64,000 nucleotides of DNA from Odontesthes bonariensis (Eukaryota; Chordata; Actinopteri; Atheriniformes; Atherinopsidae). Positions 32,624 through 62,436 of the stretch are shown here, one piece after another (positions within the stretch are counted from its first letter, which is position 1; each line of letters opens with the position of its first letter). The stretch spans positions 8,233,536 to 8,297,535 of the forward strand of contig NC_134524.1 of assembly GCF_027942865.1 (NCBI RefSeq). Reading direction: 5' to 3'. The translations under genes were made by a program, and so were the position numbers. A model generated the notes under the pieces. The model did no database searches, was not told the DNA's origin, and saw only the letters and a program-made list of their open reading frames with translations.

Positions 32624-33960
32624 TTATCATTGAATTTGTAGAAAAAGTCTCAAACACCAAAGCTTGGGGCAGAAGGCACGTCTTGGTGAAGTGGAAAGCT
32701 CTATTATAAGAACTGACATCACAATATTGAAATGGCTTCATTTATAATGATGTGTGAGCAGTTGATAATTGACAAACATTACCATAAATTCAAAGGATAC
32801 CCTTTATTTAATAAGTTATGAACACACCCTCCATGTTATTTTCACTGTACTCTCTACACACAAACTGGCAGAAGGCAAAACAAACATGGAGCCAAAACGC
32901 TGAGAGGAACAGCCCTAATCCACAGAAACTGAGTGAAACGAGCTTTAACAGGCAGCACGCACTCCCTCATGTTTCATTGATCACTTTCTGACAGATCATC
33001 ACTTTTTGGCACAGCACCTAATTGGTATGTAGGCCTGTCATCAATAGTGAGATTAAAAGATATTCACTCTACTCATTTTTTCAGTATTTTTCTTTAAACT
33101 TCTTCATAACTGGTGGATTTTTACTTGTTTTCCTTCTGCTTGGATTGTTTTTGCAGTATTATTAAAAGAAACTGGGGACAACGGCAGTGCAGGTAAACTA
33201 TTTATGATATTTTCTGTCTTTTTTTATAAAACAAAGAAAAGGAGATTTAAATATTTTCACTTGATGCCAAGTACACAATTCGAAACCAATCGCATCTGAA
33301 TTCTTGACGAATGAAAGAAAACTATAAAACTTTAGATAATTAAAATGTAGATGCAAGACATACAAATGTCCAAATGTGATCCGTCACAATGGTTGAAATG
33401 TTATTTGTTCAGCTAAGGGATTAGTTTAGTCAGTTTTATTAATGTGTAGTTCCCGTGTCGGCAACCTTTCATTAACGAATTATTGAAAATGAAGTATATG
33501 AATTTATAATGATCTTTTTTTACTTTAATGTTCATCTGAAGAAGCCAAACTTTATGTGACTCTAAGTTTGGGAAGTAGCAGGTCGAACTACTTCTTTCAC
33601 TTTTTTAGAGTTCTAGATGATAGATTAAATAATAATAATTATTATTATTATTATTTGATTACCCTGGAGAAATCCTCAGCCTTGGATGGCTGTCAGAAAC
33701 TGGTTTTAACCTGTTTTTGTGTGTGTGTGTGCATTTTAGAGCTCTTAATATTTTTCCCTGAAACAAAGCGGTTAAGCAGTGACTCTGCTCTGCTGTCTGA
33801 CTATGGAATCACACACAACTCCATCATACACATGGTTCTGACATTGAGTGGCGGAGGATGTTCTCCGGGAGAGAGCGGTGATGGGATGGGTGACAAGGAC
33901 GGTGAAACCCGAAGAAGTAAGGAGCGACTTGCTGACTTTCAAATACGCAAGCAACAATAA
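31174..33960 (+). CDS. Ubl3: ubiquitin-like modifier with C-terminal tail (A type)
   Basis: Exons 31174-31315, 33157-33192 and 33740-33960 (399 nt, 132 aa), all splice sites intact. It starts MVVQVLVFGFVGEKMTINLC. The third exon matches Ubl1 (ELLIFFPETKRLSSDSALLSDYG, then IIHMVLTLSGGG) but keeps SDYGITHNSIIHM like Ubl2/4. The tail after the glycines differs at its end (SKERLADFQIRKQQ instead of SQEKLANFQKCNLQ). The promoter carries the IRF-like site at 31084-31095. Polyadenylation signal at 34404-34409. No retroelement in its 3' region, unlike Ubl2/4. Confidence 0.8.
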
Positions 33961-34922: not shown

Positions 34923-36064
34923 TTATCTTCTGTGCCATATGGGTATGGAGGTTTGTCTGGGAGCCACACCATCGCTGCAGGGGATGAAGTAGGAGCTCGT
35001 CCTCAGGCACACGAAGCAGAACTCCACCTGGCAGCGAGGACAGATGATGTTCTTGCAGCCCGTCTTGTCGTGCTCCACCTTGTAACCGCAGGTGGGACAG
35101 GCCCGGATAGAGGGACAGTCGGAGACCCCCTGCACCTGAGTGAGGGCGCTGGTCTTGCAGGTCCTGAGGAGTTCAAGGTCTTGGTTGACGCAGCCATCGT
35201 TGTCGCAGCGATCAGAGCGTGGAGCCGTACCTTTCCACGGATTCAAACACTGCCAGCAGAACTGGTACAGTTTCTTCTTGTCTGCCGTGCACACCGTGCA
35301 CTGAACACTGAGGTTAGTCAGGTCCTCTCTTTCAACGTGAGATTTGCAACCAGGACACTATCACAAAACAAGCAAACAAACAAAACAAAGTTAAGCCCGG
35401 GGCGGTCGGTGGCGTAGTGGGTTGAGCAGGCGCCCCATGTACAGAGGCTACAGTCCTCGCTGCAGCTGGCCCCGGTTCGAGTCCCACATCGGACGGCCCT
35501 TTGCTGCATGTCATTCCCCCTCTCTCTGCCCCTGCTTCCTGTCTCTCTTCAAATATCCTGCCCATTAAAGGCATAAAAATCCCCAAAAAAGAATAATAAT
35601 AAAAAAGAAAAGTTAATTCTCCAGGAAATCTGCTCCTTTCTATTTGATTTTTTCTTTATTTGATAAGATTCTAACAGTACTGCAGTAAATGCAGCACGGG
35701 TGCAGGACCTGGTGCCAGTTTTCCAGCGCTAAATGACTGCACTTACCTTTTTACTCTCATCCAGGACTGTTTGTTCACAGTTTGTGTCACAGTGATAAAA
35801 CAGCTGCCATATAAGGTGGCAGCCTGATCATCGGGATTAATAGAAGGACGAAAACAGCCATCAAACCAATGATTAATGCGGGACACTTACGGTTTTAAAG
35901 TCACAGTACTCAGTGGCAGCCAGGCGGGCGATTTTCTGTTCAAAGTCATGCATTTCTTCAGCTGTCAGCACCGCCAGCCGACGCACCTCTGCATAAGACC
36001 ACACAGCTCCACACAGTTGCACGGTGCCTTCCTTTAAAGCGGGGCACTTGAATTTGTATCGGCC
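34923..36064 (-). pseudogene. RBR3: truncated RBR E3 ligase copy with RING2 deletion
   Basis: Exons 36064-35891 (58 codons, open) and 35357-34923 (144 codons plus stop). The last exon lacks 21 bp relative to the others, between two caggcac repeats, so FCFVCLKLTPECLRTSS becomes FCFVCLRTSS: seven residues and one cysteine close to RING2 are lost in frame. The IBR start and the DKTGC motif remain. No RING1 exons upstream. Like RBR1 it reads NLSVQC in the IBR. Confidence 0.7.
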
Positions 36065-40220: not shown

Positions 40221-40834
40221 TAGGGCTGGGCAACGATTAAAATTTTTAATCTAATTAATCACATGATTTCCCTGATTAATCGCATTTGTACGCAAAATCC
40301 AAAAATGAATTCAAAAGTAGTGTATAGCTTTTAGCAATTAGTTTTATTTTAAATGTGCTGCCATATGAATGAAAGTGCCATAACATTTGTTGTGCAAACA
40401 CACTTTTAACATCAGCATCTTTCTGTAGTTTTTATGTAGAAGCCTCGCTCCACTGTCTGTTTCCTTGAATGACTTGCTGCTATCAGTTGTGTGTTTTGCC
40501 TTTAAGTGATATTTTAGACTGGAACTACTACGCTGAGAAGACAATTCAACTTGGCAGTGTTTACAGATGACTTTGGTTCTGTCGACTCCGCCGTCTGGAA
40601 GAACTTTAAAATGAAAATGGCCGAGTAAAAGTTCCGTACCCTTCTCCATGTTTGGTGGATCCGCCGATTACTTTCTTTTCCGGTTCCGCAGCAGACAGCA
40701 ACAGACTTTTACAAAATAAAAGCCTGTGAGCAACAGACTTTTACAATAATAAAATAAATAATAAAACCTGCGTTAATGCGTGATAAAATATTTGTCGGTG
40801 TTAAATAACTAACGAGTTAACTCGCACAGCCCTA
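40221..40834 (-). mobile_element. hAT relic with BED zinc finger (unit 4)
   Basis: Same ends and target site as in the other units. The BED-finger fragment begins near 40649 on the minus strand. Closest to the unit 2 copy (both end aactcgcacagccc). Confidence 0.85.
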
Positions 40835-41982: not shown

Positions 41983-43062
41983 ATGGTTGTCCAGGTCAAG
42001 GTGATTGGATTTGAGGGGGAAACGATGAGAATCGATCTGTGCAACAGCGAAGAGGAGTTGCAGACCATGACTGTGCTGCAGCTGAAGAAGAAGATAGTTG
42101 AATGTTTCGATGATCCTGAAGGTAAAATCTCTGAGTTTGTACACTGACGTGGTTAAAATAAACACTACAGAGTAGTTTTCAGTCAAATTTTATTGTGGCT
42201 GTACACCAGTTCAGTTTATTTTCTTTAGTACAGCCGTTTAGAAGCTGTGATCGGTTTTGAAACGGTTGCTATGCCAAAAATGAAATGAATGCCAGAAATG
42301 ACTGCAGCGCGCGCACCGCCTTCTTTTTCGCGCAGTCTCTGAGATTAAATAAAGAGTTGTCCTTGAATTTATGTTCAAATTTGTGGATTATCTACTGCTC
42401 ACTGATATAGATCGTTATAAATGTATATGACGCTTAAGTTGCCTTCAATTAATGGGATGGGCATAAAGGGCTAGTTCACTGCATGCTGATCACATAAGTT
42501 TAGACCCTGTATTAAAATTACAATCGTTAGAAAGCTCAAATCTGAACATAATCATTCTAAAAAGGGTATACATTCAATAATACCTTATTTGGGATTTGTG
42601 AAAACTGAAATAAGGGCCATTTCACTGCTTCCTTTTACCAAATGTATGTGATCAGCATGCGAAAAATGCAGTGAAATGGCCCTTAATGTCCATCCCTTTA
42701 ATTCGTGATTCAGAAGCTGTGAATCGGAAGACAACTTCAGAGTCCTATAAATGAAGCCACTTTAATCAGATAGTTTTCCATTTACCAAAGCGAGACAACT
42801 GCTCCCAGCTTTTGGCTTTACGAATGTTTTTGCCATAAAATTGCTCGATTTAATTCAAGAGAGTTATATTGTACAGATTGCTAAAGGCCAACTGGTTATT
42901 TCCATCCACCAAAATAATCTTTAAACTAAACTTATAGTTGTTTTATGCCAGCAAAAATGTGATTGCAGCATTTCCTTGTTGTCTTTTCCTTTTTGAAATA
43001 AACATTGGGTTCACATATGACCCTGCACATAGAAACTGATACTTCTCAGGAAGGAAAGTATC

Positions 43063-43125
<63 letters not shown>

Positions 43126-45970
43126 CATTGAATTTGTAGAAAAAGTCTCAAACACCAAAGCTTGGGGCAGAAGGCACGTCTTGGTGAAGTGGAAAGCTCT
43201 ATTATAAGAACTGACATCACAATATTGAAATGGCTTCATTTATAATGATGTGTGAACAGTTGATAATTGACAAACATTACCATAAATTCAAAGGATACCC
43301 TTTATTTAATAAGTTATGAACACACCCTCCATGTTATTTTCACTGTACTCTCTACACACAAACTGGCAGAAGGCAAAACAAACATGGAGCCAAAATGCTG
43401 AGAGGAAAAGCCCTAATCCACAGAAACTGAGTGAAACGAGCTTTAACAGGCAGCATGCACTCCCTCATGTTTCATTGATCACTTTCTGACAGATCATCAC
43501 TTTTTGGCACAGCATTGGTATGTAGGCCTGTCATCAATAGTGAGATTAAAAGATATTCACTCTACTCATTTTTTCAGTATTTTTCTTTAAACTTCTTCAT
43601 AACTAGTGGATTTTTACTTGTTTTCCTTCTGCTTGGATTGTTTTTGCAGCATTCTTAAAAGAAACTGGAGACATCGACAGTGCAGGGAAACTATTTATGA
43701 TATTTTCTTTTTTTATAAAACAAAGAAATGGAGATTTAAATAGTTTCACTTGAGGCCAAGTACACAATTCGAAACCAATCGCATCTGAATTCTTGACGAA
43801 TGAAAGAAAACTATAAAACTTTAGATAATTAAAATGTAGATGCAAGACATACAAATGTCCAAATCTGATTCGTCACAATGGTTGAAATGTTATTTGTTCA
43901 GCTAAGGGATTAGTTTAGTCAGTTTTATTAATGTGTAGTTCCCGTGTCAGCAACCTTTCATTAACGAATTATTGAAAGTGAAGTACATGAATTCATAATG
44001 ATCTTTTTTACTTTAATGGTCATCTGAAGAAGCCAAACTTTATGTGACTCTAAGTTTGGGAAGTAGCAGGTCGAACTACTTCTAACACTTTTTTAGAGTT
44101 CTAGATGATAGATAGTTATATAATTATCTTTATCATTATTATTATTTGATTACCCTGGATAAATGCTCAGCCTTGGATGGCTGTCAGAAACTGGTTTTAA
44201 AGGCCAACTTCCACTAAAAACAGGTTTTACTCGCTCCTTCTGAAAAAGGGAGGCTCACCCCTAGTTACATACACATACTAGGCTTCCAAGTGTTGCGTCA
44301 CCTCCACAGGCTGTTTTCCCGAATTTACAGAAACAATGCAGAGCCACGAGCGAATCAGAAAAGCCTGTACATTCTACGTAGAACTGAAAAAAAGGCGTTG
44401 CCCACTTGGGATTATGCCCGCCCTCCTCGGACGGGCCCTATAACTAGGCAGAAACCTGTAGTCTGTCATTCCTCCTCATCGAGCCTCTCACTACCACCTT
44501 TCCATAAACTACATTTGACACTGAGCATATACAGAATGTTATTTTCAGGAGTTGCTAAAAAAAAACAAGCAAATAACTAGTTTAACCTTTCCTTGGCTAA
44601 CCTAATACTAACGCTGCACACGGAGACTTCACAGCCACCATGGCAAATTACATAGACCGGGGAACGTGTTTGAACAAGGGGGGGCCACAATTGCAAGAGG
44701 GGGTCACCAAAATTTTAGGTCGGGCATTATGCATAGCCGAGGCTCTGCACAGTATACACAGACACGCACGTCAGCCAGCACGGAACAGCGCAGAATAAAA
44801 TGCACAGAAAGGTACCTCGTTGGTCGGTGGTAACGCAACTGAAGCTGCTTGCTTGTACCAGTACTAAAGCACCACTACTCCGAAATCACGCTGGTCGAAG
44901 CGCTTATCGTTGTGAAAAACCTGTCCCTTGCACCTTCCTGGTTCTTTTTAGCACATCGGAATTGCTTGGTTGATGAGGCGTTGTAAGATCCCTGCTAGCC
45001 TCACTTGAACAGTGCCCATTGCTAGCCTCAGCGAGCTTTGGTTCGGTTAGCGTAGTAGTTGAAGAACATTCGTCACTAGCCCCTTTCACACTGAGACCTG
45101 CTACCATCGCGGGTCCAAATTGCCACTTCGACCGCGTCGAGCAATGTGAAAGCTTGGCGTGTTAGGTGACCTGTGTAACTTGATGTTAAACAGAGTGAAA
45201 TTAGTCCTCACATGTCGCTGTTGTTCTGAATCAGCTGTGCATTCTGTCCTCACGTTACGTCACGCCACTCCGACCCGCGTCAATTGCTGTCACATCAAAC
45301 TCAGCTCGGCAAAAAGCTTTCCCATCAGATGATGCTGTGCTTTTTACTTGTTTTGCTTTTAAATATTCAAAAATAGGTTTGTGCCTTTTCATTTTGGTTG
45401 TATATTCCAGCCACGAACAATCGCGCAATTTTCAGTGCTGCGCGGTATAGGCTCTCGGATACACACAGAGCGGGGAGGGGGGGGGGTTCCTTCATTCATG
45501 GGGGGAGCCAATCAGAGACGCCTCATTATCGCGTCACGGATATGCAGGAGAAATACCGGAAAACCCTGTCGTTTCTTGTCAAGCCATTCTTCCTGCCCAC
45601 AAAAACAGCTTGAAGCAAAGCAACCATAATGTTTTTTTAAACAGAATCGACGCCTAATGCATTCAATAACAATGGTGAACACAACAGTATTAATGAAATG
45701 ACGATGGAAGTTGGTCTTTAACCTTTTTTTTGTATGTGTGTGTGCATTTTAGGGCAGATGCTTATCCATGAAGGAAAGCGGTTATGCAGGGACTCTGATC
45801 TGCTGTCTGACTTTGGAATCACACACAACTCCATCATACACATGGTTATGAAAATGAAGGGCGGAGGATGTCCTTCGGGAGAGAGCGGTGATGGGATGGG
45901 TGACAAGGACGGTGAAACCCGAAGAAGTCAGGAGAAACTTGCTAACTTTCAAAAATGCAACCTACAATAA
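41983..45970 (+). CDS. Ubl4: B-type ubiquitin-like gene with a lost splice donor
   Basis: Exons 41983-42121, 43650-43685 and 45753-45970 (130 aa if spliced as Ubl2). Exons 1 and 3 encode the same protein as Ubl2 apart from exon 2 (FLKETGDIDSAG). The donor after exon 2 reads GGAAAC instead of GTAAAC (second base at 43687), so normal use of exon 2 is unlikely. Exon 2 is 36 nt with phase 1 at both ends, so skipping it keeps the frame and yields a 118-aa protein whose loop is close to ubiquitin and Ubl5 in length. Intron 2 and the 3' region carry the same transposon and solo LTR as Ubl2. Functional status is open. Confidence 0.65.
43686..43687 (+). other. Mutated 5' splice site of Ubl4 exon 2
   Basis: GG here against GT at the same place in Ubl1 (7702-7703), Ubl2 (18334-18335) and Ubl3 (33193-33194). 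No strong alternative GT follows immediately. Confidence 0.85.
44201..45717 (-). mobile_element. TTAA-flanked DNA transposon relic in Ubl4 intron 2
   Basis: Same insertion as 18849-20615, with TTAA on each side. A block of about 250 bp in the interior (19523-19772 of the unit 2 copy) is missing here. Confidence 0.75.
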
Positions 45971-48991: not shown

Positions 48992-51900
48992 TTATCTTCT
49001 GTGCCATATGGGTATGGAGGTTTGTCTGGGAGCCACACCATCGCTGCAGGGGATGAAGTAGGAGCTCGTCCTCAGGCACTCAGGAGTGAGCTTCAGGCAC
49101 ACGAAGCAGAACTCCACCTGGCAGCGAGGACAGATGATGTTCTTGCAGCCCGTCTTGTCGTGCTCCACCTTGTAACTGCAGGTGGGACAGGCCCGGATAG
49201 AGGGACAGTCGGAGACCCCCTGCACCTGAGTGAGGGCGCTGGTCTTGCAGGTCCTGAGGAGTTCAAGGTCTTGGTTGACGCAGCCATCGTTGTCGCAGCG
49301 ATCAGAGCGTGGAGCCGTACCTTTCCACGGCTTCAAACACTGCCAGCAGAACTGGTACAGTTTCTTCTTGTCTGCCGTGCACACCGTGCACTGAACACAG
49401 AGGTTAGTCAGGTCCTCTCTTTCAACGTGAGATTTGCAACCAGGACACTATCACAAAACAAGCAAACAAACAAAACAAAGTTAAGCCCGGGGCGGTCGGT
49501 GGCGTAGTGGGTTGAGCAGGCGCCCCATGTACAGAGGCTACAGTCCTCGCTGCAGCTGGCCCCGGTTCGAGTCCCACATCGGACGACCCTTTGCTGCATG
49601 TCATTCCCCCTCTCTCTGCCCCTGCTTCCTGTCTCTCTTCAAATATCCTGCCCATTAAAGGCATAAAAATCCCCAAAAAAGAATAATAATAAAAAAGAAA
49701 AGTTAATTCTCCAGGAAATCTGCTCCTTTCTATTTGATTTTTTTCTTTATTTGATAAGATTCTAACAGTACTGCAGTAAATGCAGCACGGGTGCAGGACC
49801 TGGTGCCAGTTTTCCAGCGCTAAATGACTGCACTTACCTTTTTACTCTCATCCAGGACTGTTTGTTCACAGTTTGTGCCACAGTGATAAAACAGCTGCCA
49901 TATAAGGTGGCAGCCTGATCATCGGGATTAATAGAAGGACGAAAACAGCCATCAAACCAATGATTAATGCGGGACACTTACGGTTTTAAAGTCGCAGTAC
50001 TCAGTGGCAGCCAGGCGGGCGATTTTCTGTTCAAAGTCGTGCATTTCTTCAGCTGTCAGCACCGCCAGCCGACGCACCTCTGCATAAGACCACACAGCTC
50101 CACACTGTTGCACGGTGCCTTCCTTTAAAGCGGGGCACTTGAATTTGTATCGGCCCTGAAAATTTAAGATGACATTGGCATTATATTGCCAGTTAAAGAT
50201 AAAATGGAACTGGTTAGGGATACTGAGCACCTGTTACAGGTAGATAACAGTGAAACTGAATCAAAACAGGTCCCATAAAGCTGAGGGGCCTTTTTGCTTT
50301 GTGATATGATACATATCTATATCTATATAGCTATAATACATGCCCACCTTAAAACGACCGAATGAAAATCTTTTAACTTTGTTGTTCACAGTAAGAGGAA
50401 TTTGACAGAAAGATAAACTGATTTATTTATCGAGTGCCATTAAAATAATTGATGCCCTCAGAGCAGAAGAATGCTGTGAAAATCTAGAAAAGCATTTCTG
50501 GGTGGCAGTTAACAGGGACAGTGGATGCCAGTTTGAGGGCTAGAAAACCAAGATAACTCTCTCAAATTTCTAGAAATTAAAGGCCTCCATTGATCGTAAA
50601 AACACCCTCAGGAAGACAACGCTGAAGTTGGCCTCCGATTCGCAAATTAAAGGGAAGGGCATAAAGGGCCATTTCACTGCATTTTTTGCATTTTGATCGA
50701 CAGAACCAAGGTCCTGTATGGACACTACAATAGTTACACTGCTCAAATCTGGATGGAATTATTTTAAAGAGGTTGTAGATTCATTAAAACCTTTTTTGGG
50801 ATTTGTGAAACCTTTGTCTGATTTGTGAAAATGCAGAATAGGGCCATTTCACTGCTTTTTTGCATTCTGATCACCCTGAACTGGGTCCTGTATAGAAACT
50901 ACAATAGTTAGACTGCTCAAATCTGGATGGAATTATTCTAAAGAGGCTATAGATTCATTAAAACCTTGTCTGGGATTTGTGAAACCTTTTTCTGATTTGT
51001 GAAAATGCAGAACAGGGCCTTTTCACTGCATTTTTGGTAGGTTTCAATGAATCTACAACCTCTTTAGAATAATTCCATCCAGATTTGAGCAGTGTAACTA
51101 TTGTAGTTTCCATATAGGACCTTGTTTTGGTCAATCAAAATGCAGTGAAATGGCCCTTTATGCCCACCCCTTTCATTCGCGAATCGGATGCCAACTTCAG
51201 CGTCGTCTCAGGAAGGTTGAGCAAATTCTGAGGTGGTTGAACTTCTACACAAGTCTAAGATATTTTAAACACAAGTCATGTGGACTGATGAAGTTGAAAA
51301 TGAGCAAATGTATGTTGAATACTGACCCAAACTGAAACTGAAACATTAATATAAGGAGACAATTAAAATAGTGAAGAAATATCTCGTTTTAGCACTACAA
51401 AACCACTGAAAAACTTTTGCATTCCACTGTGCACAGTATAAAAATGATCTGACCTCTCTAAAAAGGAGAGAAAGGGATCAAACTTGCTTTAGTTTGGATA
51501 ATTAAACCCTCAACAAAAGGTGCTGTGACATGTAAGATTCGGTAGGCCTATAAAAAATAACCCTCTACATGGGAACAGTGGCGTGAGTAAGTCAAATGTA
51601 GGACAGCACCTGATCCAGCAGGCTACGACACCACCCAGTCAGAGACTCCGGGGTGACAGCATGGCCGCAGGACATCTCTGCCCGGAGGCACCTGTCTCCT
51701 TCCTCGGACGCTGAGAAGCACAGCAAAAAGAGCAGACATTGAACGCAACACTTGCCTTCCATCACCAGAAACAGTGAAAAAAAAAAAAAGTCTTCGTGCA
51801 CATATTTCTTTTACAACATGACACATGAAGGTTCTTAAATAGCTTTAAATATGCACTCATCATGACAGGAGAACGTCTGAAAGTAACCAGCACGAACTGG

Positions 51901-52040
51901 TTAGCTACAAAATCTCGGAACATTTCGATTCGGTAGTTTGAGCGCTTACGCAGCGGATCCAGATCATCGGGTCTGTTGACGAACTTCAACGTGGTGTCAT
52001 TTGGGTCATATCTTTTCTCGTCCTGACCCTGTGTGCTCAT
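48992..52040 (-). CDS. RBR4: full-length RBR-type E3 ubiquitin ligase
   Basis: Four coding exons on the minus strand: 52040-51950, 51710-51610, 50155-49982 and 49447-48992 (822 nt, 273 aa), all GT/AG and in frame. Residues 1-31 form a short N-terminus (MSTQGQDEKRYDPNDTTLKF). The RING1-like part spans about 38-82 (C38, SCGH at 44-47, WC58, KC71, C82). The IBR begins C118-x4-C123 and includes CTVC and FCWQC. RING2 is near 209-235, with ACPTC and the predicted thioester cysteine C223 in DKTGC. Likely role: accepts ubiquitin or the neighbouring Ubl from an E2 and transfers it to substrates. It is transcribed head-to-head with Ubl5 and has an ISRE 97 bp upstream. RING2 reads CPTCSYK against CPTCGYK in the copies. 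I know no standard symbol for this fish family. Confidence 0.85.
50649..51173. mobile_element. Whole palindromic MITE in RBR4 intron 2
   Basis: Left arm attaaagggaagggcataaagg and right arm ctttatgcccacccctttcatt are complementary, and several internal segments (for example the tagaataattccatccag region near 51060) are inverted copies of the left half. Related copies lie in all Ubl intron 1 sequences. Units 1-3 retain only the left part of this element. Confidence 0.7.
51174..51609. other. RBR4 intron 2, remaining part
   Basis: Intronic sequence between the MITE and exon 2. I see no gene or repeat that I can name. Confidence 0.5.
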
Positions 52041-52137
52041 TTTGGATCTGAACAGCTCTTCTGCTCTCCGTGGACGATCCTTCTCTCTGCTCGCTCACCG
52101 GGGAATGCGCGCTGCGGCGCATAGATGTGTTTTTAGC

Positions 52138-52147
52138 TTTCAGTTTC
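52138..52147 (-). promoter_or_regulatory. Perfect ISRE upstream of RBR4
   Basis: TTTCAGTTTC on +, that is GAAACTGAAA on the RBR4 strand, inside AGAAACTGAAAGC. This matches the interferon-stimulated response element GAAANNGAAA bound by ISGF3/IRFs. It lies 97 bp upstream of the RBR4 start codon. Confidence 0.65.
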
Positions 52148-52658
52148 TTACTCATATGACTGCAACCCCTTTGTTCCTTTTTACCGAACACAAACATGTA
52201 TATTTATTATTGCTACATATTCATTTAAAACATTCCAATGAAGTTAGTAGATCAGCTGTAGTTCATCTTTATATTAAGAAATGATCTGTCGATTGCTTTT
52301 ACTGAAACAACCAGAAGAAACAGCCGGTAAACATCCTAGTTACTTACTGCTGGTAAACACGGTTATTTCCAGGAATCGTCAGCACAGTTGGCATGCAAAT
52401 AATTAAAAAAGCAAAACACACCCTGGCCATATTGTTTTCGCTCAGCCGCCTCTGTTTTGTTCACATATACTTTAATATGCATAACTCCCTTAATAAACTC
52501 AGTGCTGAAAACTTTTATTTCTGCACTGTGTTGTTACAGATTTTAATAAGTTGATTATCTAATAAAATCACATAAAAAAAAGATTTGTTTTTTTTAAAAG
52601 TAGAGCTTGTTCTTGTTAAAAAAAAAAAAGACAATATCCAAATGGAGTGGTTGGAATA

Positions 52659-52685
52659 ACAACAACAACAACAACAACAACAATA
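52659..52685 (+). repeat. AAC microsatellite
   Basis: Eight or so aac/caa repeats followed by an A-rich stretch, about 160 bp upstream of Ubl5. Confidence 0.85.
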
Positions 52686-52726
52686 AAAAAAATAGATGAC
52701 TTCAAAGATGCTAATAGGCTACTGGT

Positions 52727-52736
52727 GAAAGTGAAA
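52727..52736 (+). promoter_or_regulatory. Perfect ISRE upstream of Ubl5
   Basis: GAAAGTGAAA, followed by GT, in the context ctggtGAAAGTGAAAGT. It is 103 bp before the Ubl5 start codon and in the Ubl5 orientation. It fits the GAAANNGAAA interferon response consensus. Confidence 0.7.
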
Positions 52737-52839
52737 GTATTCTGCGTCCTCTCTGACGTCAGAGCCCGCGCCCCTTCCCAAACGCCAACGTCCTGCGGGA
52801 GCTTCAGAGCGGCAGAAGGAGCGCAGCAAGCGGGACGAC

Positions 52840-55211
52840 ATGGGGAAAATCTACCAGGTGGAAGTTTATGGGCTGAGAGGGGAGAGGATGCTGGTCGACC
52901 TGTGCAACACCGAAGAGCAAATGCAGAAAATGACGGTGCTGCAGCTGAAGGAAAAAATAGCCCAGAGGATGCCGGACGGGGCAGGTAAACGCACCGAGAC
53001 ACGATGGAGACTTAAATCATTTAAAATGCAGCCATTTGACGAACATAAGTATTCGGCAACTTCCTATTTGTTTGATCTATTTTATATCGACGTATGAAGA
53101 GCAAAACAGGTGATCAGCTGATCAACTTTGACACGAAGGCGTGTTTTCAGTGTTGAACTCTAAAGTAGTTTGTTTAGACGAGGCTGTGTCGAAGTTCATG
53201 CTGTAAGCTCAAAGTGCAGCTGAAACAAACTGCATTTATATAGCATTTCAAGTACAAAAATGTATACAAAGGTGAGATGTAAACAACACTGAGTGAAAAT
53301 ATCCAAGCAGAGAGCCAATAGCCAACCTGCGTTCAGTGTTGTAAATGTTCAGTGGAGTAAATAATTAAATTTTATTCTATTCCCGCTGTCACAGTTTTTA
53401 GTGACAACATATCTCACTCTGCAGGTTTAGCTTTAAGGATGGAAAGTATTTGAACTCTACAATGAAATGAAAGTAACTTCACAATTTGAAGATTTAAGTT
53501 TCAGTTTAATTGTTTTTATATGACGCAGCACTGCAAGAATAAGCTTTATACTATCCACCAGAGGCGGTCCTGGCTAGATTTACGCCCTGGGCGAACCCCC
53601 CCCCCCCCCCCCAAAAAAAAAAGTGTTGGTCATCTTACTTTAAAAAAGTAATTAGTTACAGTTAAAAATTACTTCTCCCAAAAATTAATTGAGTTAGTAA
53701 CTCAGTTACCGCATTGTTACTCAGCAAAGTAACTGTGACGTTGTTTTTCATGTTCTATACGCTATTACGTTCTATAACATCTTTAACATCAAAGATGTTT
53801 ATATTAACTGACTGAAGAATAAAAACACTATAAGTATTGTAGAACATTTGGTATTTATTTGAACTCAATAGATTGCAGCCTGCCATGTTAGCATGTGTTA
53901 ATGTGAGGTGCTTCATAATATTCGAGTTGCTCGAGGCAGACGTGGATAAAGTCTTTTTTCCTGGGCATAGCGTGTATGTTACATACACATTCTTGCCTTT
54001 AATTTCAATGAGCGAGAAGTAGTGCCGGTACTTCCAGTTAGAGAACGCTACCTTTGAATTTCCCTGGCTCTTTGCCATTGTTGCTGTCTTGTTGTGTTTG
54101 GCAGTCAGAGCGTGCAGCGAGATAGCTTGAGCAGGGCATGATCCGGCCACCCAGCCAATCATCATCGCATTTGCAATGTGGTCATCATCCCCACCCCTGC
54201 TGATGTGACCCGACACCTTGGGCTTCATTCAACCAAATTGTAGTAATGCGCCACTTCACATTCTCAGCAACGGCGTTGCAACAATGGGAAAAGTAATTAA
54301 TTAGATTAGTCGTTATTGAAAAAAAATAATGCCGTTAGTAACGCCGTTATACTCTAACGCCGTTATTTCCAACACTGGCCACCAACACAACAACATATTA
54401 TATTATTTGTATTATTTTATCATCTATAATCTTAAATACAAAAAGGTACAAAAAAAACCCCAGAGAAAACACGATAAATAAATGAAATACAGTATATAAA
54501 TATCAATGACAAATTCTTAAATAACCTAAAAATCCTAAAAAATAACCGTTAACCAATGTCTTGAAATACTGGTGATGGCAACTTCTTCCGTCCAACTCAT
54601 TCCTGGGGAAAACAAAGTCAGCAGGTGCCTCACTTGGTCCTCTGCAAACCAGATGTGTCCGAATTCTGTCAGTCAGAACTGCAGGCCAATTAGCAGGGTC
54701 AGGAGACAGAAGCTCATCCTCAGGCACAGGTGGGATTTTTGGTTGAGGCATTTCTAATAAAGAGAAAATGGTATCGTCATTAGTATACATGTTATTTACA
54801 GCATTTATAGCATTTACAAAAGTAAAGAATTATGCAAAAAACACACATAAACACCACACATAAACACCTGAGGAGTCCTGCAAGGAATATGAGGCTGAGG
54901 CTGAGGTAGATGGCTCCAGGACCATCCCTGAAGAGGCCTGTGTGGCTGCAGGAAAGAATCTTCTCCTAAATCTGTACTAATGGATTCTACATATAACAGA
55001 ACAATCAATCTCTTTGGGTGTATTTGAATCCGTTTGATTCTTCTCACCTTTATGTGTGTTTGTTTGTTCGTGGACAGGAACGGATCAAATGCGGCTGATC
55101 TTCACAGACAAGATGCTGGATGGAGGCTCAAGCTTGCTGTCTGAATATGGAATCCAGCACATGTCTGTCATCCAGATTGTGATTAAGGTCCCTGGAGGAC
55201 TGACGGCATAA
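52840..55211 (+). CDS. Ubl5: single-domain ubiquitin-like protein ending in GG-LTA
   Basis: Exons 52840-52984 and 55078-55211 (279 nt, 92 aa), phase 1 junction with GTAAAC donor and acaggaa acceptor. MGKIYQVEVYGLRGERMLVD, then MTVLQLKEKIAQ, then DQMRLIFTDKMLDGG, LLSEYGIQHMSVIQIVIKVPGG and LTA stop. It aligns over the whole ubiquitin fold, including the LIF strand and the C-terminal Gly-Gly (88-89). Only three residues must be removed to expose the glycines. It lacks the 36-nt middle exon and the 33-aa tail of Ubl1-4, with which it shares the LCN(S/T)EE and MTVLQLK segments, so it is the likely outparalogue or ancestor. Polyadenylation signal at 55344-55349. ISRE upstream. Intron 1 contains two hAT relics. 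Confidence 0.85.
53559..54760 (-). mobile_element. hAT transposon relic in Ubl5 intron 1 (outer element)
   Basis: Starts CAGAGGCGGTCCTGGC at 53559, a hAT-like end. A minus-strand fragment (54750-54560) reads LLSPDPANWPAVLTDRIRTH, then LVCRGPSEAPADFVFP, matching the N-terminal TTF-type region of hAT transposases related to zinc finger MYM-type proteins. The right end was not found. It is interrupted by a second hAT element. A C17/A10 tract lies at 53596-53622. Confidence 0.6.
53623..54378 (-). mobile_element. Nested hAT relic with BED finger
   Basis: Ends gtgttggtc and ccaacactgg, with characteristic gtaattagttac/taacgccgttat flanks. The minus-strand frame 54228-53755 includes KNVYVTYTLCPGKKTLSTS and IMKHLTLTHAN, a BED-type finger. 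No catalytic region. It lies inside the outer element. Confidence 0.65.
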
Positions 55212-55343
55212 CCGAGACCACCCACACCTTCTGCTGCTGCCGCCGCTGCCTCCTGCGATGGCTCACGAAGACGCTGTTCATAACTGTCTAACCTTGTAAT
55301 AATCCTTTCAGTGTTTTAAATGTCTGTTTCTGAAGTTGCTCCA

Positions 55344-55349
55344 AATAAA
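55344..55349 (+). terminator. Ubl5 polyadenylation signal
   Basis: AATAAA 133 bp after the Ubl5 stop codon, followed by an A/T-rich stretch. Confidence 0.7.
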
Positions 55350-55956
55350 AAAGTTTTTATTCGGAACACATTGCATTAAAAAGCCTTTATTCAACTTAAA
55401 CCACGTGAACAGGACATCAAGATAAATATGAAGGAACAGGTCATAATAGAGGACCATCATGGACCCCCCAGAAGTCTGTCACAAAATAAAGAGCACAAAT
55501 TATCTCAGATATAAGAGCTCATTCAATTTAGGACTCACATTAAGATGAATATTTCAGTGCTGCAGCAGGCAAACCGTCTTTCTATGTTGTGTTGGCAATA
55601 TTATATAAGTGGGTTTTATTTATGAAATGTGGCAATGGAGAAAGTTTCTTATTAAAGGTAATGCAGTGCTGCAAATGTTGTGTTCAAATCTAGCAAAAAA
55701 ATTAGACACAACACAATATACCTATATAATCATACAATGTGGGAAATTTCAGGTATTGGTCTCAGTCGAACATAAAGATGAATATGTATTTATATGTTAT
55801 GTTGAATCTACATTTGACTGTAAATTAAGGAAAAGGCAGGCCTATGTGGCCTTCTGCAATGATCACTGACGTGAAGCCATTTTGCTTTAATAGGAACTGT
55901 CGGTCCTCCGACACCCCGTGAATGCAGCCTTCTTGCTTGTTTGCTTGATAGGATGC
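55350..55956. other. Ubl5-USP intergenic region
   Basis: No recognised gene. An open frame at 55609-55869 (86 codons) has no family resemblance, no good start context and ends just before the USP promoter. I leave it unannotated. Confidence 0.5.
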
Positions 55957-55966
55957 GAAAGAGAAA
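55957..55966 (+). promoter_or_regulatory. Perfect ISRE upstream of USP
   Basis: GAAAGAGAAA followed by GT, in the gene's orientation, just before the presumed 5' noncoding exon of USP (donor at 56043) and about 220 bp upstream of the start codon. Confidence 0.65.
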
Positions 55967-56042
55967 GTATGAGAATTAGTTTCAACAGCATTGAATAGCT
56001 CGTTCCTAAACGTTTTCTTTAAAGTGTGGATCTCAACCGAAG

Positions 56043-56132
56043 GTAGGTGCGTGTTTACACGTTTTCCTGGTATTTCTTTTTGATTCTTATATGCAATTTG
56101 ACAGTTTGTCTCCTTTTTTTTGTTACTGTCAG
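56043..56132 (+). other. Intron in the USP 5' untranslated region
   Basis: ACCGAAG|GTAGGT donor and a pyrimidine-rich TTACTGTCAG| acceptor bracket 90 bp between the ISRE and the start codon, implying a noncoding first exon ending at 56042. Confidence 0.55.
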
Positions 56133-56185
56133 GGTTGTAGAAGTGGACTGACCGTCAGAAAGGAGTCTACATGAACGTGTAGGAA

Positions 56186-59100
56186 ATGGTCGACAGCATG
56201 TCTACAACGTTTACAGCTGATCCAGGTGGGTACAAGCTGGGGAGCGGTTTTGTGCCGACATAAGCAACCCTGACCACGATAAGCGACGCACCGGGAACGC
56301 GCTTAGGAAGGTTTTTAAAGGCAGGCCGATGTGAAAACAATGACCTTTGTATTTAATCGATTAAAAGTCGTGAGAACCCTTAAGAACAAAACTGCTCATA
56401 AAGATCTTGGGTCGAGTTCCGTTTGCCCTCAAGCTCCGCGTGAAAAGTCATCCTAAAGATGCGCGCGCTCGCTGAAAACTTTTTTTTTTTTTTTTTTAAG
56501 AATATGAAAGCAGGTTGAAAACTTTGTGAAAGAAACGGACTTTTTACATGCATTTACATGCATACAATGCATTTTACATTCTGAACAAACAGCTGTCTTC
56601 AGCTGTGACAGATAAAGTAATGAACACTACACTTATACTTTACTAATACTAGCACACAATACTTTAAGAGTTTTCTCTTTCAACACAGCCTTTATGAGGA
56701 AATGTGTACTCATACAAACAAATATTGTCCTGCTTAAACATGTCAAATCCTTGTTCCTGATCATATGTCGCTTTTTCAAGATATTGTCTTCTATTGTCTT
56801 CCTCCCTCACAATAAATAAGTGTAGAATTTCGAATCCTTCTTTTTGTCCATTAAATCAGGGTGAACTCATCTTGATGGCTGGGAATACACTATTAGATAT
56901 ATACTGTCCCCCCTTTGTTTAGATGGACTTGAGGTTCACTCATCTATCAAATTCATCCAGTTGACTTGTTACCTCTCCAGTTATTAATCCTGAAGTTTTC
57001 GTACTCCTATGACCTAATTTATTCATTAGTCGTGATGAAAAATGAGAATTTAAGCTAAAAAAACATTAGTAAAAGTAGTATTTTCGACTCTTTAACACGA
57101 AATTTCAATCTTTAGCTCTCTGGACCCCAATAAACGGGTTTCACATTCTGTCATGAGAGCAAAACAAGGTGCTGAAATGGTCTGAAAAGTTGCCAAATCT
57201 GGCAGCAAAATCATTAAGTTAGCAACACCGGCAGCGTCAATTCTTCTCTCTCTACACCAAAACTTTGTAAGTTTAAAATATTAGTTTTTAGCTTAGCTTG
57301 TGAAAATGTGAAAACATGTGGCATAAGAACCTGTGAAAAGTGTGAAATTATGTGGGCTATAGTCATGTGTCAAAGGTTATTATTGCACAATATCTTTTAA
57401 TTTATCTGGACTGTTGCTTGTTTTTAAATTCATTCAAATAATTTTATTTGTTTCTCTTTATATTCTTTTATGTATTCTTAATGCTTTTATTTTATGTAAA
57501 GCACTTTGAATTGTTTTGTACATGAAATGTGCTATACAAATACATTTTATTTTATTTTATTTTATTTTATTTTATTTTATTTTATTTTATTTTATTTTAT
57601 TTTATTTTATTTTATTTTATTTTATTAAAGACAACAACCTGAACACAACCTGAAGACAACAGGATGCACCTGAACACAGTTTGGGGCTAAGGTTGAAGGA
57701 GGATAGATATTTTAATTTTCAAAGTTATTACAGGTTATTACACACACTGATCATATGAAGAGAATTTACACATTTTTTTAAAATCCTCCAGCAGCTCATA
57801 GAGAATATCACGGCTTGATCAACCACGGAGCAACATGCTACCTGAACAGCGTGCTGCAGGTGCTGTTCATGACCAAAGACTTCAGAGAAGCTGTGCAAAG
57901 GTTTGTTCTTTCCAGATTTACTGGAAACTACTTATATACTATATTTAATTCAGATCAGGCTTACACTTCACTTTTTGGATGGCTAATGGCTGCTATTTCT
58001 TCAGGTTTGCCAATGACGATCCAAGGGGTGAATCTATTGATCGAAATCTTAAAGACCTGTTTGAGAATTTACTGAAACAGACAACATCCACACGTGAAAT
58101 ATTGACGACCCTGCGCATCGACAGAGGTACAGTATGAGCATGCAGAACAATCACTTCTTTACTAAACTTTTTATAAATCAAAGGATTTTATGTGAAAGTT
58201 ACATTGACGAATGAAATTATATCTAGAGGTGTTACAGCAGTCATTTGACGATAAAACTCTTTAAGTATTTATCATAGTGGGTAATTGTGAGGTACATAGG
58301 TATGATTTTTATTCTGCCTGTTTCCTCAGTGTATGAACAGTGTGATGCTGCAGAATACTTTGAGAGGATTTTAAAGCTGACCAGTCCCAAAGCAGCGAAG
58401 GTAAATACTAAATCAGTATCGTAGAGGAAACTTGAGGTAAATTGATTGAAAAATCCCACTTATTCGGAGGCCTCTGTGCACTTGTTATCAGATCTTTCAT
58501 GGTAAGTTGAGCCACACGACCACCTGTTCTAGATGCAAGTCAGAGACTTACAGAGATGGGCGATTCTGGCATCTTCCTCTTGGACTGGTGGATTCCAGCG
58601 CCGGAGACTACAGTGTGGTGAGGGTGTTTATGTTTATGCATTCAGCAGACGCTTTTATCCAAAGCGACTGACAAATGAGGATATACACGGCCTAAAATGA
58701 ACATTTTCATACATGAAAAGGACCAAGAGGAGGAAATTGGGATTTGTACTTTATATACTTGCTGTGGATCTCTCTAAATCCAAACATGAAACTTTAAATG
58801 GTGAACTTTAAATTACCTTTATCAAGCTATCAAGAAATGATTGGATTGCTGTGCTGGGCATTCTGCAGCAACCCAGATGTCAGTGTTAGCAGTGAGGAAG
58901 CTTTGTGTCACCTGGTCTTTAGGTGCTGATTGCGTCACCTGCCATTTATCTTTTAATTTACTTCTCATTATATATTCTCTAGGTTTTTCTTTGTTTTCTG
59001 TTGGGCGTAGTTCTTTTCCTTTTCCTTGACAGCCAGTCTTTTGGTCTCTGTTACTTTCTGTAAATAAGTTTATTATTAAAGCCAGCGAAAATCATCTCCA

Positions 59101-62100
59101 GCTTGGGAGTCTTCCTTTTGGGTCCACTTTTAGCCTCTGGTGACGTACGGATGACACCAGGTGACAGGGAAATTGTAGTTAAACTTCTGCTGTGCAGAAG
59201 GAGAACATAAAAAGAAAAAAAAGTTCTTCCAAGTAGCACTTTGGCCGTCAAAGGGCCGGATGGGCCGGTGCTGCAGCATCTTTAGCGACCCCCTCTGGAT
59301 GCGCATGGACTTGAAACAAAATGGCAGAAGCAGGTTAACGTAACATTCTCACACTTAGATTAAAATCATTTCCCTTGTTTGGTGCATTTTAAACTGTTTT
59401 GGATTCATTCTGTCAGTTTACTGACTTCATACATTGTTTTCTTGCATGTCGTCTGTTTGGTCATTGCTTTTTCTCTCTTGATCTGAAGGTTGGAATTGAT
59501 TAATTCAGTGTTTTATGTTAAAACCTTCCTTCTTATGAAAGCATTTTTTAGCACTATTACACCAGTCATCACTTTATTGTCAGAGCTTATGTCTCAAGTA
59601 AAAGACACGGGTGAATTTTTCAGGAGGATGGCATCAAGGAGTTTTTCAAAGGCTCAGAATTCAGTGGAGAGAACCAGATGTACTGCGAGCAGTGCGATAC
59701 CAAGGTCGATGCTACTGCAGTGAGTGAATAGAAAACGTGTTTGTTTTGTCTGATTTATTCATGTTAAAGTGGAAGCATAACAACACTCTTACACTTCTTG
59801 GTGGGGAACTGTGTTCTTTAATTTAGAGAAATGTAGTGGAGCATCATCCAGATGTTTTGATTCTGCTGCTGAAGAGGTTTGACTTCAGCTACCGACACAT
59901 GTCTTATGTCAAAATCAACGCTGTGGTGGATGTTCCATTCACCCTAAAAATATCAGAGGTATATATTTAATACATTTCAGCACTGGTTATAATCCAGAAA
60001 AATGATCATTCCTGATTCTAATGTTTAGCATTTTTTCCTTGTTGATCAGAATCAGACATACGAGCTGTATGCAGTGGTGGAGCACTTTGGGGATCTAACA
60101 AGTGGACATTACACGGCAACAATCAAGTCTCCAGATGACGAGGACAGATGGTACAACTTTAACGACACCTGGATCACACCAGTAAGACTTTAACAGCTTT
60201 TATGCTCTTTTGCTGAGAGTTGTTGTAAAGTTTTGCATTACAACAGAAAAATTAGATTTACTAAAAACTTGGTTTGCTTGTTCTTTCCACCAGCTTGATG
60301 TCCATTCATTAAAGAGCCATGAGAACATCATAAAGTGAGTATTAGTCCCTCTTTTGATTCAAAGAATACGTTTATTAGGGTTAATAACATCATTTAGAAG
60401 TCAATGTCGTTATAATCCCCCGTCACTTATCAGTTTAATAAACTCTGGACATCACTGTCAGATGCGTGTAGGTTCACAATGAAATTTATATATGTATTCA
60501 CAGCCTTACAAATCTAGCAAAAATGATCTGCGTAAACATAACTGCCTTTGTGCGTTCATACAGTTTTAATCATGAAATTACACAAAGTTCCCCCTTATGT
60601 TCAACTGACCGGCCTATAAACATGTTGAGCATGATCAAACCAAAAGTATGACAAAGAAATGGAAACATTTGACTAAAAGAAGAGGTGACGTACTGAACTG
60701 ACATTTCTGTTTATAAAATGAGACACAAAATTAGGTTTTATTTATTCTTATAAATAGCAGCCCAGAGTTTACAATGGGAAGTTGTATCATTTATTTTCTT
60801 TTCAAATTTCTCCAATTAGATCTCAGAGTGCCTATCTTCTATTTTACAGAAAGAAAGGTAAGAATCAGACATTTTCAGTAAATCTATGGTGATGTGAATG
60901 ACTACATCTGAGTATTTCTTACTTTGTCTGCATTGATTTAGTATATTATTTCCAATTGGTTCTGCAGATACTGTCACTCAAGAGTTCCCCATAAATGAAG
61001 GTCCGCCACTGACCAGCATACTGACCGATACAGACGAAGCCAGTGATGGCTTTGTGGCTGGTTCCATCAAAAGAAACGAAGACATTACGGAGGCATTGAG
61101 TGCTGACCCCTGCTGCAATGTAGATCCAGAAACCACGCATAGTTTTCCAGATGATCTAGTTAGAAAACAGGAGCGTGATGAGGCTAAAATAATGAGGGCT
61201 GATGAGGACAGGGGGGGAAACATTCTGATCTCTACTGAAGCTAATCCTAAAGATCAAGTTCCTGAAAATGCAGAACTAGTCATTTCTGAAGAGAGGAACT
61301 CAGATGTTAATCATGATGTTAAACCTGCAGTCATTGAACAACCGAATTACAAACAAGATGACATGAGCAATGCAGAGGGAGGCGTATTTGATGCAAAGAC
61401 TGATGAGAATGAACAGACAGAAAAGAAGGAAAAAGTTAAGGATGCAGTTGATGATCACAGCAAAGGGTTTAGCAGTGTTCAGACAGTCAATGATGGTAGT
61501 CAAAGTGATGGAGAAGATGATAACCTTAAACCTGCTGATGTCAACAAAAAGGGCGACGAGAGGATGAAAACAGTTGTTAAAGATCAGAAAGAAGGAGCGA
61601 CTGAAGCTGCTAAATTAAAACCTGAAAAACAAAGGCTGTTAACAATATACGACCTCTGCAGGCCCGATCATGTCATGAGTAGTGGTGACAGAGAGCAAAA
61701 CGTCCCCAAAGATGATCAGAGCTGTGAGGAAAACTTTGATAAGGATCGAGATGATAGACAGAAGAAATCAGAGCAGAGTATCGGCTTTTCACGTGGAACA
61801 CAAAAGGATGATGGCGTGGAGAAACGCGCCCAAAAACAGGACAATGAAGAACATGCTGGTGCCACTCATACACAGTCGGGATCGGACATAAAAGGAGGAC
61901 TCACAGGGAACCAAGGAGCTCAAAGAAATGAAAAGACAAGATCGGAGATTTTACAGCCAAATACAAGAGGTGGATTGTTTTCAGGAGTTCAAGACAAAAG
62001 AGAAGAAGAATCTTTGGAGGTCCTTAGTGGTGGTAACAGAAGCACCGCGACAGAAAACATTATAGCAACTGTAGAGGAAATCTCATTTGGCAGCATTAAC

Positions 62101-62436
62101 AAACAGGCAGAAAATAATGAAGGGAATACTGAGAGGAAGTCTGACAGAAGAGGTGCGAAATCCAGTTTCCCAACACCAGCTGACGGTATTAGGCTCAATG
62201 AGTCGCATTTCCCGGGAAAAGCTAAAAAGAAAGTGTCTGATGCAAAGGAAAAAGCAGTTGGAATGAAATATACCAAATATTGGGGCCACTCAGCAACACT
62301 AAAGCTAGTAAGAAAAAAAGATAAAGACAGAAGGAAAGACAGAAGGAAACATCTGGGAGTTTTTCTTCCAGGGAAAGACAGAAAAATGAAGACCAGGATT
62401 AAGAGACGGATTAGGATGAAATCCACTCCAAGTTAA
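56186..62436 (+). CDS. USP: ubiquitin-specific protease with long charged C-terminal tail
   Basis: Eleven coding exons: 56186-56225, 57792-57900, 58005-58126, 58330-58400, 58492-58617, 59624-59719, 59827-59958, 60050-60181, 60294-60334, 60820-60857, 60968-62436 (2376 nt, 791 aa), all frames consistent. An in-frame TAG lies two codons before the ATG. The Cys box GLINHGATCYLNSVLQ has nucleophile C29. The zinc-binding knuckle is C126-x2-C129 and C177-x2-C180. The His box GDLTSGHYTATIKS has H252, followed by RWYNFND. The domain ends SAYLLFYRKK near residue 302. So the triad looks intact. VYEQCDAAEYFERIL resembles the USP18/USP47 group. The last exon adds about 490 Lys/Glu/Asp-rich residues without a domain, ending in a basic stretch (RRKDRRKHLGVF, KTRIKRRIRMK) that may direct nuclear entry. 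Likely role: deconjugates ubiquitin or the neighbouring Ubl, and may trim its precursor. Confidence 0.9.
57500..57627 (+). mobile_element. LINE 3' end with TTTTA repeat in USP intron 1
   Basis: Reads aaagcactttgaattg, then gtgctatacaaataca, a motif pair typical of fish LINE 3' untranslated regions, followed by a pure TTTTA repeat of about 80 bp (57544-57627). Strongly 5'-truncated. Confidence 0.6.
58633..58680 (+). repeat. Conserved fish repeat motif in USP intron 5
   Basis: cagacgcttttatccaaagcg with its flanks is a widespread teleost interspersed-repeat core. The rest of the copy is not recognisable. Confidence 0.5.
58681..59623. other. USP intron 5, remaining part
   Basis: Long intron. 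About 58840-59300 looks like an interspersed repeat (ending ttattattaaagccagcg, then ttttgggtcc), similar in style to the tract at 12340-12790. I cannot name its family. No exon-like frame. Confidence 0.45.

Follow-up and report, generated by a model that had tools for sequence, protein, structure and literature searches.

A linked set of ubiquitin-like modifier, RBR ligase and USP genes with interferon-type promoter elements in the fish Odontesthes bonariensis

Genes for ubiquitin-like proteins (Ubls), for ligases of the RING1-IBR-RING2 (RBR) type and for ubiquitin-specific proteases (USPs) lie together on one contig (C24, NC_134524.1) of the Odontesthes bonariensis assembly (945 Mb, 187 contigs). 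We analysed a stretch of 64,000 nucleotides (C24:8233536-8297535, hereafter the window), in which an initial annotation had singled out one gene of each kind between positions 48,992 and 62,436, and we read the surrounding 324 kb (C24:8093536-8417535) for further copies of the three families. The cluster is real, it is probably interferon-driven, and it plausibly encodes a dedicated protein-modification pathway. We judge it an even call whether this is an interferon-responsive cluster of about 210 kb in which Ubls, RBRs with a reduced RING1 and USPs of the USP47/USP18 kind have expanded together and act as a tagging pathway. Although each component gene is of a known kind, the literature that we searched appears to contain no description of Ubl, RBR and USP genes clustered under interferon-type control.

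Three gene families share one genomic neighbourhood

The three candidate genes of the window are intact and linked. The starts of R4 and U5 lie back to back, 800 bp apart, with USP downstream of U5:

Positions 52040-51950, 51710-51610, 50155-49982 and 49447-48995, stop codon ending at 48992, minus strand: R4 (RBR4), four exons, 273 aa.
Positions 52840-52984 and 55078-55211, plus strand: U5 (Ubl5), two exons with a GT-AG intron, 92 aa, ending KVPGGLTA.
Positions 56186-62436, plus strand: USP, 11 exons, 791 aa, all introns GT-AG, with a UCH domain at about residues 21-299 followed by a charged tail of about 490 residues.

As far as our searches reach, the three families also occupy a single place in the genome. 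Whole-genome searches scored only the top candidates, with E no higher than 0.001; the counts are therefore lower bounds, and more distant family members may exist elsewhere. All 11 matches listed for RBR exon 4 fell at C24:8.1097-8.3175 Mb, as did 8 of the 11 listed for the Ubl at C24:8.150-8.289 Mb (the other three, at E of about 9e-4, were in polyubiquitin frames) and 45 of the 47 exon matches listed for the USP at C24:8.116-8.294 Mb, with two weaker ones elsewhere. Confinement of three families to about 210 kb of 945 Mb has a probability of about 5e-8 under random co-location, a figure for families that were chosen after the fact. Around the window we counted 11 RBR copies (8 with four exons and 3 truncated), 6 Ubl copies and 14 USP copies; the linkage claimed in the initial annotation is therefore borne out by whole co-located families, not by one accident. 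Other genes with an IBR domain are present in the genome, as a family search returned 15 IBR matches on contigs other than C24.

A second neighbourhood at 8140-8154 kb of the contig comprises a USP (8140417, minus strand), an RBR (8144804, minus), a Ubl (8150030, minus) and another USP (8151808, plus). Since its members are diverged, the association of the three families must predate the recent copying seen within the window.

All three candidate genes are under constraint. Exon 4 of R4 shows purifying selection against its nearest paralogue, with nonsynonymous divergence (dN) of 0.245 and synonymous divergence (dS) of 1.47; comparisons of U5 with the window's other Ubl genes, U1-U4, gave dN of 0.43-0.50 and dS of 1.87, 2.29 or saturated; and exons 5-8 of the USP, compared with two other copies, gave dN of 0.28-0.35 and dS of 0.88-1.13, or dN/dS of about 0.3.

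Interferon-type elements at the gene starts

Sites resembling the interferon-stimulated response element (ISRE) are found at the predicted starts of U5, R4 and the USP, in each case on the coding strand:

Positions 52727-52736, plus strand: ISRE-like GAAAGTGAAA, 113 bp upstream of the U5 start codon.
Positions 52138-52147, minus strand: ISRE-like GAAACTGAAA, 107 bp upstream of the R4 start codon.
Positions 55957-55966, plus strand: ISRE-like GAAAGAGAAA, 229 bp upstream of the predicted USP start codon.

The pattern GAAANNGAAA[CG][CT] occurs five times in the window (expectation from 100 first-order Markov sequences, 1.06), and three of the five occurrences are those listed above, giving U5, R4 and the USP the putative ISRE at the promoter that is expected of interferon-stimulated genes. 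Random placement would put sites at three or more of seven promoters with P 0.0002 (P 0.009 for a shorter core). Among 112 permuted variants of motif and spacing used as a control, two matched all three promoters: the ISRE core and one variant overlapping it.

Across all copies, the exact core was found within 300 bp of 3 of 8 RBR genes and 2 of 6 Ubl genes, and within 2 kb of exon 2 in 6 of 14 USP genes. Those outside the window are two left-hand RBRs (core 108 bp upstream of the exon-1 anchor), the diverged Ubl at 8150 kb (74 bp, opposite strand) and five USPs; the leftmost RBR has only a site with one mismatch, and no exact core was seen in the 300 bp before U1-U4. Taken with the published salmon and trout data on presumed orthologues described below, the ISRE-like sites make interferon induction of the cluster well supported, in line with the immune role that had been proposed for these genes.

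Ubiquitin-like genes

The predicted U5 protein scores 37.4 bits against the Pfam ubiquitin model (cut-off 25.4), and its closest relatives in the PDB are ubiquitins. Its Gly-Gly is followed by the residues LTA, so that U5 is a precursor in which C-terminal trimming is needed to expose Gly-Gly. The description of U5 as an intact Ubl is thus correct for its two-exon frame, while the Gly-Gly is not, as had been stated, the C-terminus of the primary product. The diverged Ubl at 8150 kb similarly ends in Gly-Gly followed by VAV.

The window holds four further Ubl genes, all intact two-exon frames with Gly-Gly-Gly and a 33-residue tail:

Positions 5882-6023 and 8266-8486, plus strand: U1, 120 aa, Pfam ubiquitin 21.1 bits (below the cut-off of 25.4).
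Positions 16641-16779 and 20651-20868, plus strand: U2, 118 aa, Pfam ubiquitin 37.6 bits.
Positions 31174-31315 and 33740-33960, plus strand: U3, 120 aa, Pfam ubiquitin 29.5 bits.
Positions 41983-42121 and 45753-45970, plus strand: U4, with a coding sequence identical to that of U2.

Gly-Gly is present in all six Ubl genes of the cluster, whereas the residues immediately upstream of it vary (IKVPGG, MTLDGG, LTLSGG, MKMKGG). The Ubls also retain K27, K29, K48 and V70 of ubiquitin, and K63 is replaced by His in all of them. On these features they are predicted to be ubiquitin-like modifiers with a ubiquitin fold and Gly-Gly (U5, U2 and U3 above the Pfam cut-off, U1 below it), and with a single ubiquitin domain they are not of the ISG15 type, which has two domains and LRLRGG.

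U1-U4 belong, with three truncated RBR copies, to a recent tandem segmental duplication in which matching stretches are 92-99.6% identical. Exon 1 of U1, U2 and U3 nevertheless differs by 10-15%, compared with 2-3% in flanking DNA (p 7e-4 to 1e-9), and in the first 40 codons 22 differing codons are nonsynonymous and 2 synonymous, summed over three non-independent pairs. This pattern fits diversifying selection; positive selection is unproven at the level of whole genes (dN vs dS, p 0.11-0.28). Gene conversion of the flanks, or a mosaic origin of the copies, could also produce it, and exon 2 of U2 and U4 is set in clearly different flanking DNA. U1-U4 have diverged mostly in their amino acids, which is what one would expect of components exposed to counter-measures by pathogens.

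To the left of the window, another ubiquitin-like segment, lacking Gly-Gly, occurs in two copies (C24:8130558 and 8134218, plus strand) in tandem units about 3.7 kb apart, and matches ubiquitin at E 0.002.

RBR-type ligases

R4 is the sole full-length RBR within the window. Two of the three Pfam IBR models listed for it were above cut-off, the best stretch being the RING2 part. RING2 proteins of this class carry the motif CxxC...GCxxxxCxxC...FCxxCL, and the RING2 part of R4 holds RACPTCSYKVEHDKTGCKNIICPRCQVEFCFVCL, with a predicted catalytic cysteine of the TGCKN type; the cysteine pattern is common to R4 and all seven other four-exon copies. Between the RINGs, a second and weaker Pfam IBR stretch (max_evalue 1) contains the cysteine pairs, and an exon of another RBR-type locus in the genome (L006) aligns with this part of R4 at E 0.002. 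The histidine that we take to be the IBR consensus is Lys in R4.

RING1 is reduced. In all eight four-exon copies it reads SCGHAVTPxSLTxWC, in which, on the ligand numbering that we assume, C3, H4, C7 and C8 are kept and C1/C2 and C5/C6 are absent, so that one zinc site of the cross-brace is lost. RING models of Pfam gave no match to exons 1-3 of R4. Because the family does not have a complete C3HC4 RING1, we describe it as RBR-like with a reduced RING1 rather than as a textbook RBR. The initial proposal of an intact RING1-IBR-RING2 protein accordingly stands for the four-exon gene and its intact RING2, and has to be amended for RING1, which keeps one of two zinc sites. R4 contains no domain beyond the RBR and no predicted membrane span (maximum 19-residue hydropathy 1.12).

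In a first model of R4, exon 1 continued into the intron; this was replaced through a canonical GT donor, giving the 273-aa protein, and a further in-frame exon of 57 bases between exons 3 and 4 is possible. With the earlier, extended exon 1 model, a scan of bacterial genomes for R4 gave 18 pattern matches, none of which was confirmed, and scans of viral contigs for R4 and the USP gave no lead; an NCBIfam search returned nothing informative.

The remaining RBR copies of the window are incomplete:

Positions 9473-10639, minus strand: RBR1, 5'-truncated, exons 3-4 only.
Positions 23896-25024, minus strand: RBR2, 5'-truncated, with a stop codon in exon 3.
Positions 34923-36064, minus strand: RBR3, 5'-truncated, with a 7-codon gap in the RING2 part.

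The idea that the window contains four complete Ubl-RBR modules was ruled out, as RBR1-3 lack exons 1-2 and include one stop and one 7-codon gap. On the right-hand side of the window, RBR genes with four exons stand four in tandem at C24:8303461-8318216, with dN/dS in exon 4 ranging from about 0.7 to 2.2.

The USP gene and the USP array

The USP of the window matches the Pfam UCH model at 152 bits and has the Cys box GATCYLN and the His box SGHYTA, placing it in peptidase family C19 and confirming the description of this 11-exon gene as an intact protease with both boxes. The closest solved structure is that of USP47, and USP18 is also matched over residues 20-301.

Within the array of 14 copies, the catalytic Cys is retained in 12 and the catalytic His in only 5. 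In the other nine the His is replaced by Arg or Tyr, and two of these also lack the Cys; in two copies a His occurs at the following position. Exons 5-8 form open frames in every one of the 14 copies. Exon 3 was found only in the window copy and exon 4 was not found in 5 of the 14, so some copies may be decaying; the GT expected after exon 7 was not seen in 11 of 14 copies, a test whose end offset may be wrong. The copies without the catalytic His are thus a probable bank of pseudoenzymes or decaying copies. Three recent pairs have dN above dS (0.08/0.06, 0.03/0.01 and 0.08/0.06), while an older pair falls below it (0.18/0.29).

USP copies lacking the catalytic His are situated at C24:8157693-8222153, left of the window. 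Also on that side, a long open frame between two USP genes (C24:8123363-8129281) presumably represents the polyprotein of a BEL/Pao LTR retrotransposon.

Surroundings of the cluster

The cluster is flanked on the left by a gene with LDL-receptor-A domains, which we take to be LRP10, and on the right by an amino-acid permease and a RING gene, presumably an SLC7-type permease and CCNB1IP1. Other features of the window are as follows:

Positions 1115-1450, 14970-15293, 29376-29699 and 40344-40667, minus strand: BED zinc-finger fragment, once per duplicated module (two of the four Pfam-scanned), probably transposon-derived.
Positions 18866-19228 and 44218-44580, plus strand: repeated 120-aa open frame, the second copy having no Pfam match above cut-off.

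Relation to known systems and published data

The closest parallel is ISGylation (ISG15, UBE1L, HERC5 or TRIM25 or ARIH1, and USP18), which likewise brings together a modifier with Gly-Gly, a ligase and a protease from the USP18/USP47 branch under promoters of the interferon type. ISG15 consists of two ubiquitin domains with the terminus LRLRGG, whereas the cluster Ubl is single-domain, diverges in its tail and carries an extension that can be removed; to our knowledge, ISG15 genes are not clustered with those for their ligase and protease. The canonical ISG15 of this genome is separate from the cluster: two 158-aa frames on contig C7 end in FRLRGG. These are two near-identical intronless ISG15-like genes (L035 and L036, C7:23.02 and 23.03 Mb) about 8 kb apart. 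FAT10 (UBD) is another interferon-induced Ubl with a tail other than LRLRGG; unlike the cluster Ubl it has two domains and needs no trimming, and we know of no RBR or USP linked to it. Modifier, ligase and protease genes also stand together in prokaryotic ubiquitin-like operons such as those of Caldiarchaeum (PMC6043591, PMC5654768, in the parts available), which differ in including E1-like and E2-like genes (PMC5654768), none of which was found in the cluster, and in that the cluster consists of separate spliced animal genes.

Published expression data, taken from the available parts of each source, point in the same direction as the promoters. In Atlantic salmon, ARIT, an RBR outside the known groups, rises by a log2 fold above 11 (11.6 and 13.5) under IFN-gamma, among the highest values in the IFN-gamma tables, and USP18-like, which forms a sister clade to USP18 within USP47-like sequences, rises by 4.93 (PMC12234341). 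ARIT resembles R4 in being RBR-only, without a further domain at either terminus or a predicted membrane span, and is annotated as RNF144 in salmon; it differs, on a comparison of descriptions, in that its RBR structure is called typical, while R4 and seven further copies lack one RING1 zinc site. USP18-like is similarly near USP47 and USP18 and interferon-inducible, in contrast to the cluster USPs in that here 14 copies form one array and 9 lack the catalytic His. The cluster RBR probably belongs to the ARIT family, and the cluster USP probably corresponds to USP18-like. The accessible portion of PMC12234341 raises the question whether ARIT is an ISG15 ligase, and we found no mention in it of linkage or of a partner Ubl.

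In trout, RNF144A-A (LOC110500498, 5.2) and a USP47-like gene (LOC110500501, 3.1) appear in the same infection-response table (PMC8467531), and their near-consecutive gene numbers, like those of the PSMB genes in that table, suggest that they are neighbours; our literature search found no mention of LOC110500499 or LOC110500500. IPNV raised the same trout RNF144A-A in three or more leukocyte groups (PMC11258392), cod RNF144A-A probes gave positive fold values after poly(I:C) (PMC3534563), and salmon rnf144a was raised in fish with a high bacterial load (PMC7656060). A salmon "ubiquitin-like protein" moves together with RNF144A-A (PMC7316828, PMC3819742, PMC3511526), which we do not use as proof because the probe may be ISG15. 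No RBR or RNF144 of the R4 kind was found in the parts consulted of PMC13030082, PMC12575339, PMC8287582 and PMC10300353. A description of a Ubl/RBR/USP cluster was likewise not found in our literature search, outside whose reach lay most subscription papers and all bioRxiv preprints.

A possible tagging pathway and its alternatives

We infer that the RBR conjugates the Ubl and that the USP removes it. On infection, the Ubl, RBR and USP genes would be switched on together, and a USP with intact catalytic residues, such as that of the window, would cut the Ubl precursor behind its Gly-Gly, releasing the short tail. The Ubl would then be charged by E1 and E2 enzymes (activating and conjugating, respectively) encoded elsewhere, accepted by the RBR on its RING2 cysteine and attached to target proteins, an attachment that the USP would reverse. 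Most USP copies, lacking the catalytic His, could, if expressed, bind tags without cutting them, as shield, sensor or decoy. What favours such a pathway most is the conservation of Gly-Gly, along with a short cleavable tail in the diverged copies, against a background of change in much of the remaining sequence. A fuller version, which we put forward tentatively as possible but short of probable, is a second interferon-driven tagging pathway in fish, parallel to ISGylation, in which fast-evolving single-domain Ubls have their own E1/E2 preference, RBRs with half a RING1 load them, a linked USP trims or removes them, and dead USPs serve as shields or decoys against viral deconjugating enzymes.

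Several observations weigh against the pathway, the strongest being the divergent C-terminal tail of the Ubls. In the six genes (five distinct sequences) the positions equivalent to ubiquitin 72 and 74 are K/T and P/D/S/K, not Arg, so the E1 of ubiquitin or ISG15 may be unable to charge them, or the Ubl may not undergo conjugation at all. The lost RING1 zinc site is, we assume, the one that usually helps bind E2, and with USP47 as the nearest solved relative the USP is expected to cleave ordinary ubiquitin too. The initial annotation's suggestion of a self-contained system did not hold up: none of 70 E2 exon matches and none of 21 ThiF/E1 matches listed in genome searches were on C24, and none of eight E1/E2 exons taken from these matches found a counterpart at E below 0.3 anywhere in the 324 kb surrounding the window. 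The sensitivity of these searches is limited: among the matches listed in comparable family searches, none of 15 was an RBR exon of the cluster and none of 39 a Ubl exon of the cluster. In controls on the 324 kb, ubiquitin found U2, U3 and U4 (three of six Ubls) and missed U1, U5 and the 8150-kb Ubl, while one of eight RBR queries clearly recovered the RBRs of the cluster, so that a strongly diverged E1 or E2 could have escaped. On the regulatory side, the four right-hand RBRs have no core in the 300 bp before exon 1, 8 of 14 USPs have none within 2 kb of exon 2, and beyond the window the ISRE-like sites lend modest support (P 0.010, or 0.065 when two near-identical RBR promoters are counted once). 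Finally, the cluster genes were matched to ARIT and USP18-like by description, not by sequence.

The alternative that survives best, and to which we attach appreciable weight while stopping short of an even chance, is a co-regulated immune neighbourhood with no shared tag, in which the RBR and USP act on ubiquitin (or ISG15), the Ubl is a free regulator or decoy, and clustering reflects shared interferon control and tandem duplication. USP47 is a deubiquitinase, and its position as nearest solved structure, together with Ubl tails lacking Arg72/Arg74, a canonical ISG15 elsewhere in the genome and the E1/E2 negatives for the cluster, speaks for this account. Retention of Gly-Gly in six of six Ubl genes while the preceding residues change speaks against it, as do the three-residue cleavable tails kept by two diverged Ubls, which a purely free regulator would not need.

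We consider it unlikely that the Ubls serve as additional substrates for the enzymes of ISGylation, with the E1 and E2 of ISG15 charging them, HERC or the RBR ligating them, and USP18 together with USP18-like taking them off again. USP18 is indeed among the USPs matched, and both the placement of USP18-like and the ISG15-ligase question in the available part of PMC12234341 would suit it; against this, the ISG15 of this genome ends FRLRGG and no cluster Ubl has Arg at position 72 or 74. A chance product of recent tandem duplication with no joint function, suggested by the recent segmental copies of Ubl1-4 and RBR1-3 and the truncation of RBR1-3, is very unlikely: recent copying would account for the repeats within the window, but not for the diverged members found alongside (RBRs with 56-67% identity to R4 in exon 4, a Ubl with about 50% per exon) or for 14 USPs in the same 210 kb, and the intact genes have ISRE-like sites.

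The components of ubiquitin-like pathways are usually discovered one gene at a time, whereas a locus holding modifier, ligase and protease names candidate partners at once. The cluster would supply a neighbour for salmon ARIT and USP18-like, which are described without one in the available part of PMC12234341. A further question is why a host should have many dead USP copies, able to bind tags but unable to cut, and an interferon-type locus that unites Ubl, RBR and USP genes makes a dedicated pathway testable with few constructs.

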